Positions 6,410 to 34,953 of a DNA stretch of 36,711 nucleotides are shown piece after piece. A program made the position numbers and the translations under genes. The stretch covers positions 1-36,711 of IMG/VR virus record IMGVR_UViG_3300023096_000011. One strand, given 5' to 3'. This stretch comes from a virus. The first letter of the stretch is position 1, and every line of letters starts with the position of its first letter. The notes beneath the pieces are model-generated. The model did not search any database, was not told the origin of the DNA, and saw nothing but the letters and a program-made list of their open reading frames with translations.

Positions 6410-6744
6410 ACACGACCCGCCTCTCTCAAGCCCGCCGCCTGTTCTTCTGCGACGGCGTCCCTGCATCCACTGCTCGCCACAATGCACGCCAGTGGACGCG
6501 CTCGGTCCGCTTCCTGGGCGCACGCTGGCATGTCCTGCAGCAGCAACCGAAGGCGCCGTCGACGGTGACGCTCGGCCAGCTGCGCGAGCGCCTGCAGAAG
6601 ATCCGCGGCACGCCGTGGGGCGCGAAGCTGGTCAGCGAGACCGAGACGATCGCCGACCGAATCGAGTTAGAGATCGCCGAGCGTGAGATCGCTGCTGGTC
6701 TGCGTCCGGCTGTGCGCGGCGAATCGTGCTGGGGGCCGCTGTAA
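6406..6744 (+). CDS. Hypothetical protein, 112 aa
   Basis: The start is GTG at 6406 with GAAGGAG eight bases upstream. The protein begins VNTTRLSQARRLFFCDGVPA. An N-terminal part about residues 10-35 has Cys, His and Arg (FFCDGVPASTARHNARQWTR). The second half is a long amphipathic helix (LRERLQKIRG, IADRIELEIAEREIAAGL). It might be a small nucleic-acid-binding or coiled-coil protein; no family assigned. Stop overlaps the next ATG as TAATG. Confidence 0.65.
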   Translation: MNTTRLSQARRLFFCDGVPASTARHNARQWTRSVRFLGARWHVLQQQPKAPSTVTLGQLRERLQKIRGTPWGAKLVSETETIADRIELEIAEREIAAGLRPAVRGESCWGPL

Positions 6745-7145
6745 TGGGCACGAACTTCTACTGGCTGAAGGAAGAGAAGCCGCCCTGCGAATGCTGCGGC
6801 CGGCCGTTCGACGACGCGCGCCTGCACATCGGAAAGTCTTCGGTGGGCTGGTGCTTTGCGCTGCACGTCGTGCCGGAGGACGGCATCCACACGCTGGATG
6901 ACTGGCGGGAACTCCTGAAGCAGCCGGGCAGAATCGAGGACGAATACGGTAACTCTCTCAGCGTCGAGGACATGCTCGCGCGCATCACCGACCGTAGCGG
7001 CCGCGGCCCCGGCTGGTCGCCCAGTGAGTACGCGAAGAACAGTTCCCAGCCTGGCCCGAATGGTCTTGTTCGAAGCGTCCTGAATGGCCACTGCATCGGC
7101 CACGGCGACGGGACCTTCGACTATTTCGTCGGGGAGTTCTCGTGA
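6744..7145 (+). CDS. Conserved phage protein with CxxC motif, 133 aa
   Basis: The start is ATG at 6744 in a TAATG junction. It begins MGTNFYWLKEEKPPCECCGR. The pattern MGTNxYW, a CxxC pair, IGKSSVGWCFALH and a DEYG motif (IEDEYGNS) is one I know from small conserved phage proteins of unknown function. The Cys pair may bind zinc. Residues about 35-60 include the Gly/Trp-rich core. It is part of the coupled early-right gene string, but no biochemical role is known. Confidence 0.75.
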   Translation: MGTNFYWLKEEKPPCECCGRPFDDARLHIGKSSVGWCFALHVVPEDGIHTLDDWRELLKQPGRIEDEYGNSLSVEDMLARITDRSGRGPGWSPSEYAKNSSQPGPNGLVRSVLNGHCIGHGDGTFDYFVGEFS

Positions 7146-7267
7146 ACCCGCACCGCATCAACCACACCCCGAAGAAGCCCGTCGGCTTCGGCTGGGCGCT
7201 CCTGATGATCGTCGGCGTCGTGCTGGCCGTCCTGGCGCTGATCACGCGCTGCACCGAACTGATCTAA
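7142..7267 (+). CDS. Single-pass membrane mini-protein, 41 aa
   Basis: GTG at 7142-7144 overlaps the previous stop as GTGA. It opens a 41-codon frame ending TAA at 7265-7267. Residues about 15-35 form one hydrophobic helix (FGWALLMIVGVVLAVLALIT), preceded by a basic N-terminus (HRINHTPKK). This is the layout of a small inner-membrane protein with its N-terminus inside. The function is unknown; small phage membrane proteins often affect the host envelope or superinfection. Confidence 0.65.
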   Translation: MNPHRINHTPKKPVGFGWALLMIVGVVLAVLALITRCTELI

Positions 7268-7299
7268 ACCTCTCACCACACCACCACCAAGGAAAACCC

Positions 7300-8499
7300 G
7301 TGATCATTTTCACCAACCCCGGAGAGATCGACATCCGCTCGATCTCGACCTTCGGCGTCAGCGTCAAGGAGGGAAACAACCCGATCGGCTTCTTCGGAAC
7401 CGGCCTGAAGTACGCGATCGCCGTGCTGCTGCGCACCGGGCATCGCATCACCATCATGTCGGGCGATACCGTCGTGCAATTCGGCATCGAGGCGCAGGAT
7501 GTGCGCGGCCAGGCGTTCGACTTCGTGACGATGCAGGTCGGCGACGGCCCCGCGACCTCCGTCGGCTTCACGACGGAACTCGGCAAGCAATGGGCTGTGT
7601 GGATGGCCTACCGCGAAATCGCCTGCAACTGCAAGGACGAAGGCGGCAGCGCTGACCGCGCGCCGTACATGGTCGACCCTGAGGCCGGTCGCACGCAGAT
7701 CGTTGTGCAGGGTGACGAGTTCGATGCGGTCTTCGCGCGTGCGCACGAGTTCATCCTCGGCGACGAACCCCAGGCGGTCTACGGGACGCTCGAAGTTCGG
7801 AAGCAGCCGTCGCATCACTTCTTCTACCGCGGCGTCCGCATCGCCGACCTGCATCGCCCGTCGCTGTTCACCTACAGCGAGCAGACGCAGATCGAACTGA
7901 CCGAGGACCGCACCGCGAAGAGCATGTGGGAGGTGCAGCACCGGATCATTTCCGGCGTGCTGCAGGCGACCGACCGGGACTTCATCCGCACGATGGTGAC
8001 GGCGCCCGAGGAGAGCTACGAATCGACGCTCGACTTCCACGGCTGGGGACCGACGCCGTCGGCCGAGTTTCTGGAGGTCGTCGGCGAGTGCACGGCGAAC
8101 AAGCTGGTGAAGGTCAACCCATCGGCGAAGAAGCGCCATGACCAGCATGTGCAGGCCGCGTTCGCGCCGCGCGAGATCGTGATGACTGCGGTTCAGGCCG
8201 AGAGCATGGAGCGCGCGCTCGACTTCTGCGAGCGCATCGGCTTCTCGATCCGCGGCGCATTCCCGATCCTTGTGGTCGAGTCGCTGGGGAGCGGGATCCT
8301 CGGCCAGGCGCACGGCGGCACGATCTACATCGCCGAGCGCGTGTTCCACCTGGGCGGCTCGAAGCAGCTGGCCGCGACGCTGATCGAGGAGTTCGTGCAC
8401 CTGCGCCACGGCTGGGCCGACCTCACGCGGGAACTGCAGAATTTCCTGTTCGAGAAGCTGGTCAGTCTGGGCGAAGAACTCGCAGGGGAGCCGCTGTGA
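7300..8499 (+). CDS. GHKL/HSP90-like ATPase-related protein, 399 aa
   Basis: The start is GTG at 7300 behind the leader CACCACCACCAAGGAAAAC. The N-terminus contains NPIGFFGTGLKYAIAVLL (residues about 27-44), matching the G-rich GxxGxGxK loop of GHKL ATPases such as HSP90 and MORC. The usual preceding Asn-containing helix is missing or very divergent. The middle is beta-rich. Near the end, residues 359-371 hold LIEEFVHLRHGWAD, an EExxHxxH arrangement resembling a degenerate zinc-peptidase site. Homologues with the same IGFFGTGLKYA motif are known in other phages without known function. It lies directly before the exonuclease gene and overlaps it by GTGA. Confidence 0.6.
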   Translation: MIIFTNPGEIDIRSISTFGVSVKEGNNPIGFFGTGLKYAIAVLLRTGHRITIMSGDTVVQFGIEAQDVRGQAFDFVTMQVGDGPATSVGFTTELGKQWAVWMAYREIACNCKDEGGSADRAPYMVDPEAGRTQIVVQGDEFDAVFARAHEFILGDEPQAVYGTLEVRKQPSHHFFYRGVRIADLHRPSLFTYSEQTQIELTEDRTAKSMWEVQHRIISGVLQATDRDFIRTMVTAPEESYESTLDFHGWGPTPSAEFLEVVGECTANKLVKVNPSAKKRHDQHVQAAFAPREIVMTAVQAESMERALDFCERIGFSIRGAFPILVVESLGSGILGQAHGGTIYIAERVFHLGGSKQLAATLIEEFVHLRHGWADLTRELQNFLFEKLVSLGEELAGEPL

Positions 8500-9431
8500 A
8501 GACCCCAGGCATCTACTACGGCATGCCGATCGAGGACTACCACAGCCTGACGGCCGACTCGATCTCGAAGACTGGGCTCGACGACATGGCCAGGAGCCCG
8601 ATGCACTATTACGCGCGGCACCTGCACCCCGACCGGCCGACACCGGAGCGGAAGCCGTCGCACGACTTCGGGAACATGCTGCATTGCGCGGTGCTGGAGC
8701 CGGAGCAGTTCGACCAGCGCTACTGCGTCCTGCCGCCGGGCGCACCGAAGCGGCCGACCGAGGCGCAATGGAACGCCGTGAAGTCGAGCGAGAGCAGCGA
8801 GGCGGCGAAAGCCTTCTGGCTGGATTGGAACCAGCGCACCGCCGGCAAGGCAACGATCCCCGCAGCCGATCGCGATGCCGTGCGGCAGATGGCCGCCAGC
8901 GTGCGCAAGCTGACGAACGTCTGGGGCAAGCTCTCTGGCGCCGAGGTGCTGAAGGGACCGTCCGAGGTCTCGGCCTTCTGGGTCGACGAGCAGACCGGCG
9001 AGGCGTGCCGCTGCAGGCCCGACAAGGTCTTCATGCTGAACTCGAAGCAGGCCCTGCTGTGCGACCTGAAAGGCTTCGGCGATGTGCGCCCGCGCGAGTT
9101 CTCCCGGCAGTGCGGCAAGCTGTCGTATCACGTTCAAGATGCGTGGTACTCCGACGGCTTCGCGCACGCCAGCGGGATCGAGGTCGTCGGCTTCGTGTTC
9201 CTCGTCGTCGAGGACACTTGGCCATTCGCCGCGGCGTCCTTCGTGCTGGGCCAGGAAAGCCGCCTCGAAGGGTTCAACGAATACCGCCACCTGCTCGACC
9301 TCTACGCGCAGTGCAAGCGCACCGACACGTGGCCGGGCCCATCCGACCGCACGACGAAGATCGACCTCCCCTCCTACCTGTTCGACCGGCCCGACGAGGT
9401 GATCGAGTTCGACGGTAACCCGCAATCCTGA
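8496..9431 (+). CDS. RecE/exonuclease VIII-type PD-(D/E)XK nuclease, 311 aa
   Basis: The start is GTG at 8496. The protein follows the RecE C-terminal / DUF3799 pattern: YHSLTADSISKTGLDDMARS near the N-terminus, FGNMLHCAVLEP with His63, then Glu about 157, RPDKV with Asp about 176, DLKG with Asp190 and Lys192, and YHVQDAWY near 211. These residues form the metal-binding nuclease core. The family degrades one strand of duplex ends 5' to 3' to make recombinogenic tails. The following gene is a conserved companion; no RecT or Bet-type annealing protein was recognised. Confidence 0.85.
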   Translation: MKTPGIYYGMPIEDYHSLTADSISKTGLDDMARSPMHYYARHLHPDRPTPERKPSHDFGNMLHCAVLEPEQFDQRYCVLPPGAPKRPTEAQWNAVKSSESSEAAKAFWLDWNQRTAGKATIPAADRDAVRQMAASVRKLTNVWGKLSGAEVLKGPSEVSAFWVDEQTGEACRCRPDKVFMLNSKQALLCDLKGFGDVRPREFSRQCGKLSYHVQDAWYSDGFAHASGIEVVGFVFLVVEDTWPFAAASFVLGQESRLEGFNEYRHLLDLYAQCKRTDTWPGPSDRTTKIDLPSYLFDRPDEVIEFDGNPQS

Positions 9432-27854: not shown

Positions 27855-28492
27855 TCAGCGCTTTCTAGGTGGTGGTACAGCGCCGGCCGCTTCGAACAGA
27901 GACCGATCCGCTTCCGTGTTTCCGTCATCCCCTGGCGGCGCGAGATAGTCCATGGCCGTCTGCAGCGTCACGCCGCCATTGCTCCAGGCCACCAATGCCG
28001 CCGGCTTCTGATACCGATGGTAATCGTCGAACGGGTGCTCGGTGTAGAACTGACACCAGGCTTCGAACTCGGGAAGCCCCATTGCCGCTTTCCACTCTGC
28101 GACCGTCCGGCCGCCCAGTGCGAGCGCCAGGACGTGCCACAGCCACTCGCGGCTATGGGGCGTCAGCCGTTTCCCTCTTCGGCCTCCTGCACGGGCTTGT
28201 GGTTGAACAGGAACGCCTCGGTGTAGATCGCCGCCGCGACGTCGGGCAGGAGCTTCTGCGCCTTCTCGATCGTCAGCGCCGGCTCGCCGTCGGGGTCGCA
28301 CAGCGCGGCCGCGATGAGGATGTGCGTCCGCATGGCGCGCTGGTCGATGTCCTGGGAACGAGCCGCCGAAAGGAAGCGCTCCCAGTCGAAGGAGGACACC
28401 TTGCGGAACCACAGTTTCTGCGTGCCGCCGGGCATCTTCACATCGCGCTCGCCCACCTCTGGCGAAACGAAAAAGTCCTTGGGAAGTGCCAT
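27855..28492 (-). CDS. Tail assembly chaperone, frameshift product (gpGT-like), about 212 aa
   Basis: This product starts like the shorter chaperone (ATG at 28492), reads 108 codons to the GGGAAAC heptamer, slips -1, and continues in the new phase from 28169 (CGG) to the stop at 27855-27857. The added 104 residues start RLTPHSREWLWHVLALALGG and end VPPPRKR. They correspond to the T part of lambda gpGT, which binds the tail tube protein. It is a fusion by recoding, so the annotated span is not a single open frame. Confidence 0.8.
28163..28492 (-). CDS. Tail assembly chaperone (gpG-like), 109 aa
   Basis: The unshifted product begins MALPKDFFVSPEVGERDVKM and ends EAEEGNG. FRKVSSFDWERFLSAARSQD and a helical C-terminal half match gpG-type tail chaperones that lie between the tail tube and tape measure genes. 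It prevents aggregation of the tape measure before tube assembly. The gene sits five bases after the tail tube gene. The stop codon follows the slippery sequence by two codons, as usual for gpG. Confidence 0.8.
   Translation of the reverse strand: MALPKDFFVSPEVGERDVKMPGGTQKLWFRKVSSFDWERFLSAARSQDIDQRAMRTHILIAAALCDPDGEPALTIEKAQKLLPDVAAAIYTEAFLFNHKPVQEAEEGNG
28169..28175 (-). promoter_or_regulatory. -1 ribosomal frameshift site GGGAAAC
   Basis: The heptamer (GTTTCCC on the plus strand) has the X XXY YYZ pattern in the gpG frame: G GGA AAC. Slipping both tRNAs back by one base gives GGG AAA with partly kept pairing. The new frame then continues 104 codons without a stop, while the original frame ends five bases later. 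Lambda G/GT uses the close relative GGGAAAG. Confidence 0.85.
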
Positions 28493-30148: not shown

Positions 30149-30467
30149 TGGAGGCTCCTTGCTCGACCGTCAGGTCGGTGTATTCGTTGCCGCGCTCGTC
30201 GGGCAGCACAGCGAGGATGGAAAAGATCACCTCGCCTTGCTTGACGCGCCACGCGGGATCTACAGCCCGCTTCCGGATCCGCATCGATGCCCGGGCCGGC
30301 GCCAGGACGGTATTCGCTCGGGCCATTTCCAGGCCGGAGGTGTAGCGCACATCGGCCCAGACGGCGATCACATCCTCCCAGGTGGTCGACATGGCGCCGG
30401 TGCTGGCATTGCGCGAGCGCACCGGGCGCTGCAGCTTGATCAGCTTGTTCAGGGAACCGATGCGCAT
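30141..30467 (-). CDS. Head-tail joining (head closure) protein, 108 aa
   Basis: It starts MRIGSLNKLIKLQRPVRSRN at 30467 in a TGATG junction. The pattern LNKLIKLQRP, then TWEDVIAVWADVRYTSGLEM and VKQGEVIFSILAVLPDERGN is that of the phage head-tail joining family (SPP1 gp16 / HK97 gp7-like). It closes the portal after packaging and connects to the tail. Two other frames reading this region in full are shadows. Confidence 0.8.
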   Translation of the reverse strand: MRIGSLNKLIKLQRPVRSRNASTGAMSTTWEDVIAVWADVRYTSGLEMARANTVLAPARASMRIRKRAVDPAWRVKQGEVIFSILAVLPDERGNEYTDLTVEQGASNE

Positions 30468-30946
30468 CAGATCCCCAAGCCCGTGCGGTACGGGAAGAGG
30501 CTGAACTCGGAAGCCATCGGCATCGCCGCGACGCTGACGCCGCTCTGCACGTCCTGGCGGTTCTCGAAGCGGTGGCCGAAAATGAAGAGGATGCCGCTGA
30601 TGATGTCGTCGTTCGCCACGATGCCGGCGCGGATCTCGCGGCACTCTTCCTGCGCGCGACAGTAGACCTGATGCGCATAGGTGCGCGCGTCGCACCGGGC
30701 CGCGCAGTCCTCGATCAGGTCGGCGGCCTCCAGCGCGGCATCGTAGGCGGTGCGCGCGGCAATGAGCGCCGGCGTGACGCCGTCCTGTGCCTCCTGCAGT
30801 TCCTCGTCGGTCGCGTAGACCTTGCGGTTCAGGAACTGCTGGGCAGCTTGCTCTGCGCCGCGCAGGTACGGCAGGAACTCCTCCTCAGGAAAGTCTGGGT
30901 CGACCCGGAGGTGGCGCCGCGCTCGGTCGCTGTCGATGATCGGCAT
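30467..30946 (-). CDS. Head-tail connector (gp6-like adaptor), 159 aa
   Basis: It starts MPIIDSDRARRHLRVDPDFP at 30946. The N-terminal LRVDPDFPEEEFLPYLRGAE and the helical repeat of QAAQQFLNRKVYATDEELQE match the gp6-like connector family, which forms a ring under the portal. A block with several Cys and a Tyr (DCAARCDARTYAHQVYCRAQ) in the middle is a lineage-specific insertion. The end FSLFPYRTGLGI is typical for the family. Confidence 0.8.
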   Translation of the reverse strand: MPIIDSDRARRHLRVDPDFPEEEFLPYLRGAEQAAQQFLNRKVYATDEELQEAQDGVTPALIAARTAYDAALEAADLIEDCAARCDARTYAHQVYCRAQEECREIRAGIVANDDIISGILFIFGHRFENRQDVQSGVSVAAMPMASEFSLFPYRTGLGI

Positions 30947-30949
30947 GGT

Positions 30950-31273
30950 TCAGGTCTCGTCGATGTTGAAGTGGAGAGTCTGCTGCTCAACGCGGTTTTG
31001 GTCGGTGGTCCAGACGCAGCGTGCCCACTGCTTCGAGCCGTCGGCGCCGATGGTCTTCAGCATCACATAGGCGATCGGGCCGCGGTCGGTGTCCTGCACG
31101 ACCTCGCTGTCGGTGACCTGCAGACCGTCGCTGCAGGTCCAGACGGCTTGAGCAGAGGTCGACACGGCATCGCCTTCGACCAGCCAGCCGCGCAGCGCGA
31201 TCCCATAGTCGAGGTCGCTGCGCACGCTCTTGGTGATGACCTGGCGCCCGTAGCGCTCCTGAAAACCTGTCAT
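30950..31273 (-). CDS. Putative Ig-like structural protein, 107 aa
   Basis: ATG at 31273 is preceded by AAGGGAACACCCC. It begins MTGFQERYGRQVITKSVRSD. The core (LDYGIALRGWLVEGDAVSTS, then WTCSDGLQVTDSEVVQDTDR and YVMLKTIGADG) follows a beta-sandwich pattern that I know from small phage proteins coded near head-tail connectors. Their name varies and function is uncertain. It probably sits on the particle, close to the lectin-like protein coded just upstream. Confidence 0.65.
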   Translation of the reverse strand: MTGFQERYGRQVITKSVRSDLDYGIALRGWLVEGDAVSTSAQAVWTCSDGLQVTDSEVVQDTDRGPIAYVMLKTIGADGSKQWARCVWTTDQNRVEQQTLHFNIDET

Positions 31274-31284
31274 GGGGTGTTCCC

Positions 31285-32859
31285 TTAGAAGCCCGCCGGC
31301 CGCGGCGATAGCTCGATTGTGCGCGACTGGGCGCTGATCACGAGGATTCGATTCTGCGCGGGCAGCGACAGCACGCGCTCGCTGTACCCGAAGACGATGT
31401 CGCCCGGCCGCGCCTGAACGCTGCCCACGGCCGAGACCGACGCCACGCCCGCCGCGGTGCCCGACGTGCGCGACACCGCCGCGCCGCTGCCCTCGGTCGT
31501 CGCGATGCCGGCCGCCGGTGTGGCGCTGCGCGCGCTCGTGCCGCCGGCCAGCGCCGAGACCGATGCAGCACCAGCGGCCGGGGTGAACGCGGCCACGGCG
31601 CGCGCGGATGTGGAAGCAGCCACCGACGCGATGCCGTTCACCGGCACGGCGGTCGATCCCTGCCCGGTGCCGGTCACAGCAGAGACTGACGCGACGCCGC
31701 TCGCTGGCGCCGCTATGGCCTTCGATGCAGCAGCGACCGTGCTGCTGACGGTGGCCAGCCCGACAGCCGGAGACGGCGCTGCGCGCATTGTTGCAGCCGC
31801 GAGGGCCGAGACGATGGCCGAGCCTGCCGCCGGCGTCGCGCCGTATGCCACGGCCGCGGCGCCTGCTGCCGACACGGTGGCGACGCCGCTCGCGCTGGTC
31901 GTTGCGGTCGAGGCCAGGGCAGCACCGCCCGCCGCCACCGATGCCGCACCGGCTGCAGGCACTGCAGAGGATGCGACCCCTGTGATCGACGAGCCCACCG
32001 CGGAGGCAGTCGCCACACCTGCAGCCGTGACTGCCACTGCCGATACGAGAGCGCGCGCGACAGCAGAGACGGCGGCCAGGCCAGCAGCTGCAGCAGCCGC
32101 GACTCGGGTGGTCGCCCGGCCGGCCGCGCTGGTGGTTGCCAGGCCTGCAGCAGCGGTGCCCGCGGTGCGCGAGGTGGCGGCAGCAGTGCGCGACACGGTG
32201 GCGGCGCCGGCGGCGGCCGTGGCGGTGGTCGCCGTCGTGCCGCCAGAGGGACCTGGGAAAGGGAACCCGTCGTCGACGAACGAGGCGGTCACAGACTCGT
32301 TGATCAGGTAGCGGAACTCGTCGATCTTGCCGCGCCAGCCGGTCGAGGCCCCGACGCTCTTTCCGACCCACGCCACGGTCGGCACCGAGAAGCCCGCGCC
32401 GTAGGCCACATTCGCGACCAGCGTCCCATCGATGAAGAGGTAGACGCGCTGGGTCGAATTGACGAAGGACGCGGTCAGCAGGTGCGGGTTTCCGTCGCTG
32501 GCGAAGCTGCCGCGGTTGCCGCTGTTCGCGCCCTCGAAGTCGAGCTCGTTGCTGTTGCGAATATTCAGGTTCCAGGCGTTGGAGCCGAACAGCGTCGTGA
32601 AGAAGAAAGGAGGAGCGGTGCCGGCCTTGACGCGGATGTCGATGCGCCAGTCCCGCGCGCCTGCCATGTTGTTGATGACCGCTGCAGTCGTCGTCGAGAC
32701 TCCACCCTCGGCCGAGGAAAGATCGAGCGATGAAAGCCCTGTGATGGGGCTCACCGTGCTCTGGGTGGCGCCTCCGCTCGCCGTCCAGACGTTGCCCGGC
32801 ACCTCGTCGGTGATGGTCGTGCCGCTGTTCTCGAAGCGGAGGAGAGTGACGAGCGACAC
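31285..32859 (-). CDS. Lectin-like structural protein with 21-aa repeats, 524 aa
   Basis: It starts MSLVTLLRFENSGTTITDEV at 32859. Residues about 1-205 match a LamG/concanavalin A-like jelly roll (TSTGWRGKIDEFRYLINESV at the end). Residues 216-478 consist of about 13 copies of a 21-residue unit with the pattern AAGxATVSAxAxAxxxAxA. A C-terminal domain of about 46 residues (PAQNRILVISAQSRTIEL) resembles a small domain often found in phage structural proteins. The gene is between the capsid and connector genes, so this could be a capsid decoration, head fibre or neck appendage. The combination is unusual. Function is inference. Confidence 0.65.
   Translation of the reverse strand: MSLVTLLRFENSGTTITDEVPGNVWTASGGATQSTVSPITGLSSLDLSSAEGGVSTTTAAVINNMAGARDWRIDIRVKAGTAPPFFFTTLFGSNAWNLNIRNSNELDFEGANSGNRGSFASDGNPHLLTASFVNSTQRVYLFIDGTLVANVAYGAGFSVPTVAWVGKSVGASTGWRGKIDEFRYLINESVTASFVDDGFPFPGPSGGTTATTATAAAGAATVSRTAAATSRTAGTAAAGLATTSAAGRATTRVAAAAAAGLAAVSAVARALVSAVAVTAAGVATASAVGSSITGVASSAVPAAGAASVAAGGAALASTATTSASGVATVSAAGAAAVAYGATPAAGSAIVSALAAATMRAAPSPAVGLATVSSTVAAASKAIAAPASGVASVSAVTGTGQGSTAVPVNGIASVAASTSARAVAAFTPAAGAASVSALAGGTSARSATPAAGIATTEGSGAAVSRTSGTAAGVASVSAVGSVQARPGDIVFGYSERVLSLPAQNRILVISAQSRTIELSPRPAGF
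31426..32214 (-). repeat. About 13 tandem 63-base (21-residue) repeats in the lectin-like gene
   Basis: Motif starts (AAG, ASG or VNG followed by xAxVSA) recur every 21 residues, with one unit of 23 and one of 20. The units have diverged at both protein and DNA level, so this is an old, selected repeat and not a recent slippage. Later units end with Pro (AATP, AVP, AAFTP), which may set the boundary between successive helices or strands. Confidence 0.8.
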
Positions 32860-32870
32860 GCTTCAGGCCT

Positions 32871-33308
32871 TTATTCTTCGGTGACGACCACGCCCGCATT
32901 GATCTGCGGCGTCACACCGTTTCCGGTGACGATGGTCGGCGAGATCGCGCCCTTGTAGAGCAGCTTTCCAGCGCCCGAAGCCGAGGTCCCGATGCCGAAG
33001 AATGCCGCGGTGCCGCTGCCGCCAGTGCCGGCCGGGAACACCGCCGCCGCCGCCAGGGAAACGGCATTCCCCGAGATCGTGAAGCCGCCCGAGGTGCGCG
33101 CCACGGCGACGCGCGCATAACTGGTGTACGTGACCTCGCTCGTCGTCTGGTCGCCGGCCTCGCCCGGGTCGGCGGTGTGCAGCGACAGGTACAGGCTACC
33201 GGCGGTCGTCGAACCGCGCAGGCCCGTCGCGTCACCTATCAGGGCGGCGGTGGTGTTGTTGAACACCATGGTCAGGAGGTCGGTCTCCCAGGCGTTGGAC
33301 TTGCTCAT
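32871..33308 (-). CDS. Conserved phage structural protein (often called tail fibre protein), 145 aa
   Basis: ATG at 33308 follows CCGGAGATACCCTG. The protein begins MSKSNAWETDLLTMVFNNTT and contains SLYLSLHTADPGEAGDQTTS and SYARVAVARTSGGFTISGNA, a well-conserved pattern in many siphoviruses. Homologues are labelled tail fibre protein but lie in the head region, so a capsid or neck surface role is as likely. The rest is Gly/Ala-rich beta. Here it is the first of three consecutive putative surface proteins. Confidence 0.75.
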   Translation of the reverse strand: MSKSNAWETDLLTMVFNNTTAALIGDATGLRGSTTAGSLYLSLHTADPGEAGDQTTSEVTYTSYARVAVARTSGGFTISGNAVSLAAAAVFPAGTGGSGTAAFFGIGTSASGAGKLLYKGAISPTIVTGNGVTPQINAGVVVTEE

Positions 33309-33368: not shown

Positions 33369-33683
33369 TCAGGCGTTCTCGGCCGGTGCTGCGTCGAGCA
33401 GCGCGGCGAGGTCGTCCTTCAGGCGCACGCCGTCTGGGATGGCGATCTTCCGGCGTTCGAGCTCGGCCTTGATCTCGTCGACCTTCAGGCCTTCGGAGGG
33501 CTTCGGCGCGGGCGGCGGCGCAGGCGTGGGCGCGGGGGCCGGCGCCGGTGCGGCGCTGCCGTCGCTGCCGTCTTCCTTGAGCCGCGTCGCTGCGCCGATC
33601 TCTACGAAGTGCTGGCCGCGGTTGCTGTCCATGCGGACGGTCGTACCGGCGCGCGGGTCGGGGGATTTGAACTTGATCAGCAT
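33369..33683 (-). CDS. Capsid-associated protein with C-terminal HeH/LEM/SAP-like domain, 104 aa
   Basis: It begins MLIKFKSPDPRAGTTVRMDS at 33683. The N-terminal part is a small strand-rich region (GQHFVEIGAATRL), then a Pro/Ala linker (PAPAPAPTPAPPPAPKP, residues about 45-61). The C-terminal part GLKVDEIKAELERRKIAIPD and VRLKDDLAALLDAA has the helix-extended-helix pattern of HeH/LEM or SAP-like domains. Such proteins often follow capsid genes and may bind DNA or the capsid interior. Exact role unknown. Confidence 0.65.
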   Translation of the reverse strand: MLIKFKSPDPRAGTTVRMDSNRGQHFVEIGAATRLKEDGSDGSAAPAPAPAPTPAPPPAPKPSEGLKVDEIKAELERRKIAIPDGVRLKDDLAALLDAAPAENA

Positions 33684-33756: not shown

Positions 33757-34953
33757 TCAGGTCACGATGCCGAAGTCACCGTAGATGAACGCTTCCGGAC
33801 GGTACACAGCCAGGGCCAGGCGCTCTTCCGCCAGGATCGTGACCATGTTCTTCACGAAGTCGTCTTCGTTCTCGGTGGCGACTTCGACGCGCGCTTGCCA
33901 GCGGTCAAACACCTGGGCGCCCATGCGGAAGGCGCCGGTCAGGAACTTGTCCACAGCGATCGCCTGCGTCTGCACAACCGGCAGACCCCACAGCGTCGGG
34001 CTGATGTTGCCCTGCGGGTTGCCGATGATGTAGCGACCTTCCGTGTCCTTGGCCAGTTCGATGCGTGCCCAGTCGATCGGGTTCAGCACGTGGCCGGTTG
34101 CAGGGTATTCCGCGAGGAACGCCTGCAGCATGGCGAGGCGGATCATGTCGATCGACGTCGGCGAAGGCACTGCCGTCGGTGCAGCGTAGGCCGTGGCCTG
34201 GGGGATGATGCCCAGCAGGTTCTGGCCGGTGCCGTCACCGTTCAGGAGTTGCTGCTCTTCCTTGAAGGCCAGGCCGTAGCGCATGCGGCCGTCGATGAAG
34301 CTGGCCAGCTGCGCCGCGTCGTCGAGGATCTGGCGCGATGCCTTCACGAAATGCGCGATCACCTTCGGGCTGGTGGTCATCAGATCGAACTTGATCGACG
34401 ACTCGGGCTTCTTCGCACCTTCGGCCACGCCAGCGGCGTTGTTCGTGAACCCGGTTTCCTTCACGTACTCCAGCAAGTTGCCGTCCATCGTGCCGGGGGT
34501 GATCAGGTCACGCACCGTCATGCGGCGCTCGGGCATGGCCAGCACGCCGGCCAGTCGGTTCGGGCGCACGAGGTCGCCGGCCGAGCCGTCTGCGTCGGTG
34601 GTCAGGCTGGTGATCGCTGCCTTGTAGGTCAGGTCGACCTTGCCGCGCGGGCGGGTCTGGCCGAGGAAGGCCTTGACCTTCTCGTCTTGGATGAACTGCT
34701 GGCCGAAGGTCTGATGCTGCACGTCGCCGCCGGCGCCGTTGGCTTCGATCTTCGCGAGTTGCTGCTGAGCCGCTTGGAAGTCCTTGGCGAGCGCGCTGTG
34801 CTCGGTCATCAGCTTGTCGACAGCGGCCTTCGTCTCGGCAGTGATGGCGCCGGAGGCCTTCACCTCTTTCAGGGCGGTCTCGGCGAAAGCCTTGACGTCG
34901 TCCTCGATTTTCTTGATCGAGGCGCTGACGGCTTCGGGGTTGATCGTGGTCAT
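33757..34953 (-). CDS. HK97-fold major capsid protein, 398 aa
   Basis: It starts MTTINPEAVSASIKKIEDDV at 34953. Residues about 1-72 form a charged coiled coil (delta or scaffolding domain; AVDKLMTEHSALAKDFQAAQ). The remaining body contains HK97-fold signatures: ETGFTNNAAGVAEGAKKPES, FVKASRQILDDAAQLASFID, RMRYGLAFKEEQQLLNGDGT and a C-terminal NMVTILAEERLALAVYRPEA. The protease encoded just upstream should remove the delta domain during maturation. Length is typical. It ends with a terminator-like hairpin. Confidence 0.92.
   Translation of the reverse strand: MTTINPEAVSASIKKIEDDVKAFAETALKEVKASGAITAETKAAVDKLMTEHSALAKDFQAAQQQLAKIEANGAGGDVQHQTFGQQFIQDEKVKAFLGQTRPRGKVDLTYKAAITSLTTDADGSAGDLVRPNRLAGVLAMPERRMTVRDLITPGTMDGNLLEYVKETGFTNNAAGVAEGAKKPESSIKFDLMTTSPKVIAHFVKASRQILDDAAQLASFIDGRMRYGLAFKEEQQLLNGDGTGQNLLGIIPQATAYAAPTAVPSPTSIDMIRLAMLQAFLAEYPATGHVLNPIDWARIELAKDTEGRYIIGNPQGNISPTLWGLPVVQTQAIAVDKFLTGAFRMGAQVFDRWQARVEVATENEDDFVKNMVTILAEERLALAVYRPEAFIYGDFGIVT

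Follow-up and report, generated by a model that had tools for sequence, protein, structure and literature searches.

A predicted rope-and-tip protein for a beaded neck fibre of the GP4 type in a long-tailed phage, and the association of gp80-like bead genes with proteins built of 20-21-residue repeats

The open reading frame at positions 31,285-32,859 on the minus strand of an IMG/VR virus contig (IMGVR_UViG_3300023096_000011; the whole stretch analysed, 36,711 nucleotides, is hereafter the window) probably encodes the rope-and-tip subunit of a beaded neck fibre of the GP4 type, in this case in a long-tailed, siphovirus-type phage. The predicted protein of 524 amino acids, with a GTG start, comprises an N-terminal LamG/ConA-like domain, thirteen 21-residue units and a short C-terminal region, and its gene sits in the middle of a fibre module of three genes. 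Because both flanking genes belong to the families of the GP4 fibre I protein (gp80) and the GP4 fibre-tail adaptor (gp77), the repeats most likely form a rope that runs through gp80 beads and is anchored by gp77. The association between gp80 and repeats of about 20 residues is the most interesting general result of this work, and is not stated in the open literature that we searched.

Judging by its gene content, the window is a contig of a long-tailed (siphovirus-type) phage, with genes for the portal, a ClpP-type protease and an HK97-type capsid protein upstream of the rope gene, and genes for the connector, tail completion protein, tail tube, tape measure, distal tail protein and J-like central fibre downstream. 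The earlier note on this DNA, made from the sequence alone, had placed the rope frame between capsid and connector genes, and PHROGs and Pfam assignments of the neighbors agree: the HK97-type major capsid protein is encoded at 33,757-34,953 (minus strand; phrog_10, E = 7e-91; PF05065) and a gp6-like head-tail connector, likely near the attachment site, at 30,467-30,946 (minus strand; phrog_40, E = 6e-11; PF05135). The GC content at the third codon position of the rope frame (0.82 overall and 0.87 in the N-terminal part) resembles that of the neighboring phage genes, which indicates that this frame is the coding one. A 649-aa open frame in a different phase (30,950-32,899, minus strand), which extends across the rope gene to end in the adaptor, was rejected as a high-GC artefact on the basis of GC by codon position. 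Two other features of the contig are worth recording. A small gene beside the capsid gene (33,369-33,683, minus strand) encodes a protein with a linker rich in Pro and Ala and a C-terminal domain that matches phrog_19159; at the corresponding place in locus L148 lies a gene with a near-perfect tandem DNA repeat of 19 residues. A slippery heptamer, G GGA AAC, is located at 28,169-28,175 (minus strand), just before the stop of a 109-aa ORF (28,163-28,492), and a -1 shift at this site would join that ORF to the frame of 27,855-28,412, as expected of a tail assembly chaperone pair.

The gene directly upstream of the rope (32,871-33,308, minus strand; 145 aa) encodes a predicted fibre bead of the Pfam family Gp80 (PF23140, 'Podophage GP4 fiber I protein'; E = 4.2e-13), and the profile of the bead family matches 8jou_a in the PDB (E = 8.5e-8). 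The AF2 model of the window bead has a pLDDT of 93.9, and its best Foldseek match is again 8jou_a ('Fiber I and fiber-tail-adaptor of phage GP4'; VIA Z 10.0), followed by neck proteins of the phages Sf14 (9c39_K, 108 residues, gp31-sized; Z 9.8) and Bas63 (Z 9.7). The gene directly downstream (30,950-31,273, minus strand), the ATG of which lies about 12 bases past the rope stop codon, encodes a predicted fibre-tail adaptor of the family Gp77 (PF23148, 'Podophage GP4 fiber-tail adaptor protein'; E = 1.5e-6; 29 bits, with the cutoff at 27). As a single sequence, the adaptor weakly matches 8jou_D and finds no viral contigs, and its family matches PDB 8JOU by sequence or profile. The rope protein itself, searched as the whole 524-aa chain, matches nothing in Pfam and PHROGs, has no close relatives in IMG/VR and gives no tblastn match among GenBank phages; the PDB sequence search, run with the whole chain and with the LamG part separately, returned nothing relevant.

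Genes in the order gp80, middle protein, gp77 are also present in Microcystis phage Mae-JY04, Sphingobium phage Lacusarx, Phage DSL-LC06, the Burkholderia phages BcepIL02, JC1, DC1 and CSP3, Pseudomonas phage Itty13, Ochrobactrum phage POI1126 and Sinorhizobium phage PBC5, and the middle protein usually contains an array with about 20 residues per unit. Across all ropes examined, the fitted copy numbers range from 5 to more than 20, a wide variation among relatives of the kind that the earlier note had regarded as support for a length-setting role. Among the 55 distinct gp80 loci in IMG/VR with enough flanking sequence, 46 contain a repeat protein of period 19-23 near gp80 and, of all loci, 38 have a best period of exactly 20. 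The closest capsid relatives, by comparison, include no locus with gp80, gp77 or a repeat protein of period 19-23 (0 of 63, with L148, at lag 19, left out because its signal comes from another small gene, in which the DNA itself is repeated in tandem almost perfectly), so that the two sets differ with a Fisher p of about 5e-24, the control set without gp80 representing one capsid lineage. In bacterial genomes, a repeat protein is present at 49 of the 69 gp80 loci, compared to 5 of 69 when the residues of the ORFs are shuffled. A wider control, built on the BUCT603 terminase, yielded only 5 loci and was excluded. In many loci, the repeat protein lies 1-3 kb from gp80 rather than adjacent to it and, given this spacing and the one-lineage control, the linkage test shows association, not contact. 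In many gp80 loci (L003 at 6521-8566, L040-L043, L057-L068), the interval from gp80 to the repeat protein encodes two proteins, each of about 300-400 aa and with a conserved ending of the 'ERDFLNQLPSLPRIYD' type, possibly further fibre or capsid parts.

The repeats of the window protein (31,402-32,223, minus strand; residues about 213-486), which we predict to form the bead-threading cord, are readily detected by self-comparison. Self-identity is 34% at lag 21 and 35% at lag 42, compared to about 19% at other lags, and none of the 5000 shuffles reaches the observed maximum. The profile fit yields 12 units and the motif scan adds one more, at residue 471, for a total of 13, with anchor glycines at residues 218, 239, 260, 281, 304, 325, 346, 367, 388, 409, 430, 451 and 471, in agreement with the roughly thirteen tandem 21-residue units of the earlier note. 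At lag 63 in the DNA, similarity between units is 0.52 and 0.51 at codon positions 1 and 2, whereas at position 3 it is 0.35, equal to the value at lag 60. The units thus appear to be old and maintained as protein, rather than products of a fresh DNA duplication. In the structure prediction for the whole chain, a check that the earlier note had proposed, the N-terminus matches LamG and lectin folds, in a low-confidence model, and the repeats have a pLDDT only near 50, with one or two short strands per unit weakly predicted.

Phage fibres are often homotrimeric and self-standing, and the repeats could, in principle, fold on themselves into a beta stalk with LamG tips, gp80 being a separate decoration. 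The short strands predicted for each unit would fit such a stalk, but they come from a low-confidence AF2 model of the monomer, the 20-21-residue repeats are tightly linked to gp80 in both viruses and bacterial genomes, and Sf14 provides a precedent for threading (PMC11821841), so that we regard a self-standing fibre as unlikely. Less probable still is a head fibre, in which gp80 and the repeat protein would decorate the capsid surface instead of the neck. The module does directly follow the capsid gene, and PHROG 240, which includes gp80 relatives, is annotated as 'head protein'; however, the gp77 adaptor together with 8JOU puts the gp80 family at the tail vertex, and the close fold relatives of the window bead are neck whiskers. 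Least probable, by a small step, is a partnerless Ala/Ser-rich disordered linker with repeats that reflect drift in a low-complexity tether: the low pLDDT across the repeats and their biased composition would be compatible with it, but the period of 20-21 is constant across diverse sequences and hosts, similarity between units is retained at the first two codon positions but not at the third, and in L087 and BcepIL02 the repeats are not Ala-rich yet the period is unchanged.

If the repeats are a rope threaded through beads, the two ends of the protein can be assigned predicted roles. The N-terminal domain (32,248-32,859, minus strand; residues 1-204), the putative distal tip, matches the Pfam family Laminin_G_3 (PF13385) over residues 84-183 (E = 7.7e-7; 29.8 bits, with the cutoff at 27.6), a match that exceeds the cutoff only when the repeats are removed and residues 1-204 alone are the query. 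With the low-confidence full-chain model, Foldseek retrieves LamG and jelly-roll lectin modules, for example, a legume-type lectin domain and a neurexin LNS domain. Matches to lectin modules of bacterial toxin complexes and sialidases were also obtained; given the common jelly-roll fold and the low-confidence model, we assign them no functional weight. No close relatives of the LamG domain were found in bacterial genomes. The original assignment of a LamG/ConA-like domain thus holds, whereas the accompanying remark that the domain combination was not known in phage proteins does not: a LamG-type domain with 20-21-residue repeats near gp80 is also found in L016, L087 and, weakly, L083. L016 and L017 contain the closest viral relatives of the window bead (83 and 82% identical, respectively), and both have 21-residue arrays with mutually similar C-termini, but the LamG-type domain is present in L016 only, so that the N-terminal domain of the rope seems to be exchanged among relatives while the rest is kept. 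L017 retains the downstream tail genes of the window, and no match to the window capsid protein was found in it. Bead and rope are present in L016 and L017 but gp77 was not detected in either, which implies that the adaptor is not universal.

The C-terminal region (31,288-31,401, minus strand), initially described as a small domain, consists more precisely of three short strand repeats that contain Arg, SERVLSLPA, QNRILVISA and QSRTIELSP. Similar Arg-bearing strands end most of the ropes that are followed by gp77, namely, those of Lacusarx, Mae-JY04, Mwe-JY26, DSL-LC06, the Lessieviruses and L081 and, in bacterial genomes, L212, L217, L261 and L264; the minor tail protein beside gp77 in Bernal13 also contains them. 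In ropes without a detected gp77 they are mostly absent, a contrast that was assessed visually and by a simple count of Arg spacing and that has exceptions in both groups. This co-occurrence suggests that the C-terminus of the rope grips the gp77-type adaptor, leaving the LamG end free. In Mycobacterium phage Rumpelstiltskin (L103, 3054-6089), a gp77-like gp22 is followed by a gp80-like gp23 and a large minor tail protein, the C-terminus of which has similar Arg-strand repeats; from this gene order and these repeats, cluster L mycobacteriophages may carry a beaded fibre among their minor tail genes.

Taken together, these features would fit a fibre in which the strand repeats at the C-terminus pair with a ring of gp77-type adaptor subunits at the neck, the thirteen repeats extend, as strands and turns, through dimers of the gp80-like bead or alongside them, and the LamG domain forms the free tip, where contact with a surface glycan would be possible. 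The analysis establishes the layout of the domains, the identity of the two flanking families and the genomic linkage of gp80 to 20-21-residue repeat proteins, and from these we infer physical threading, the bead-to-repeat ratio, the orientation of the tip, sugar binding and the presence of the rope in virions. The earlier proposal of a capsid or neck appendage with a stalk is retained as far as a neck appendage with a lectin-type end is concerned but, given the flanking gp80 and gp77 families, the repeats are probably a bead-carrying cord and not a free-standing stalk. The number of repeats would then set the number of threaded beads and hence the length of the fibre, with a ceiling of about 90 nm if 13 x 21 residues were fully extended at 3.3 Å each. 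One repeat unit per bead is geometrically possible, given that the beads of the neck fibre of phage A-1(L) take up about 6 nm each and an extended 20-residue unit about 6.6 nm, a comparison that speaks to consistency only. PDB 8JOU contains 10 chains of gp80 and 3 of gp77; matching the repeat number to the 10 gp80 chains through the Lessievirus ropes was abandoned as too uncertain because these ropes fit 6-8 units, with an irregular second half. More tentatively, the 20-21-residue repeat might serve generally to dock gp80-fold beads, each bead (or protomer) taking up one unit, with the copy number acting as a genetically encoded ruler of fibre length in phages of many bacterial phyla and with interchangeable N-terminal tips. 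Where gp77 is present, the approximately three C-terminal strands could find partners in three adaptor subunits for each fibre (GP4 reportedly has 15 gp77 for 5 fibres).

The beaded-fibre design is common in phages but has hardly been recognised from sequence before, and the genes for such neck fibres are now mostly labelled 'hypothetical protein'. The pairing of gp80 with 20-21-residue repeats provides a sequence rule by which phage genomes can be searched for beaded neck fibres and for the tips with which these contact the host. Should each repeat dock a single bead, the length of the fibre could be read from the gene and altered by deletion of units, in the manner of a molecular ruler.

In the Ralstonia podophage GP4, five gp80 dimers are reportedly linked by a 'rope protein', and gp77 is said to form a 15-mer; no paper on the 'rope protein' was found in the open literature searched. 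The window module resembles GP4 fibre I (PDB 8JOU) in that gp80-like and gp77-like genes flank the ORF and the bead fold matches 8jou_a, but differs in that the phage is long-tailed and the rope has a LamG-type tip. The repeat proteins (that of the window and the Lessievirus ropes, alone and as a profile) gave no relevant sequence or profile match to the chains of 8JOU. A 15:12 collar has been described as 'like in the podophage GP4' (PMC10925440), and chain g of 8JOU is described as a dimeric fibril by the authors of the study on Alishewanella phage LSH1 (PMC13243795).

In the neck of Shigella phage Sf14, whiskers are capped by gp31 dimers, with gp30 threaded through (PMC11821841, PDB 9C39), and gp31 (110 aa) weakly matches the Gp80 profile (E = 1e-4). 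The likeness lies in the bead-fold dimers that are located at the neck and threaded by a second protein; unlike the window rope, gp30 is short (166 aa), with no evident 20-residue repeat and no lectin, and the Sf14 neck is six-fold. The neck fibres of the Anabaena myophage A-1(L), about 100 nm long, are chains of 16 beads with a larger distal bead that contains a carbohydrate-binding module, and the tip showed no binding to the tested host (PMC10966104). By the published description, A-1(L) gp80-gp82 resemble the window module in forming a neck fibre of chained beads that ends in a carbohydrate-binding module, and in that beads and tip are encoded together, but in A-1(L) about 14 trimeric beads are joined head to tail, with no rope.

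The module of Burkholderia phage BcepIL02 (gp55-gp57) and its relatives (Lessievirus) shares with the window the order gp80, period-20 repeat protein, gp77, as well as the C-terminal Arg motif, but these are podophages and their ropes have no recognised tip domain. In virions of Burkholderia phage JC1, the gp80 and gp77 homologues were detected by mass spectrometry, whereas the rope homologue, gp54, is absent from the proteins reported (PMC9144972), which counts against the proposed fibre. LSH1, like the window phage, is long-tailed and has a three-gene module, gp34-gp36, the products of which are a tip protein resembling a lyase, a dimer of the GP4 fibre type and an attachment protein with an Ig fold; the C-terminal part of the tip protein is poorly predicted and was left unexplained by the authors (PMC13243795). 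It differs in that the tip is a lyase-like beta-helix and not LamG, the module follows the lysis genes and the paper recognises no repeats; the gp80/repeat pairing may explain the badly predicted C-terminal part of gp34. Given the precedents of GP4, Sf14, A-1(L) and LSH1, the fibre gene of the window is a variant of a known fibre type.
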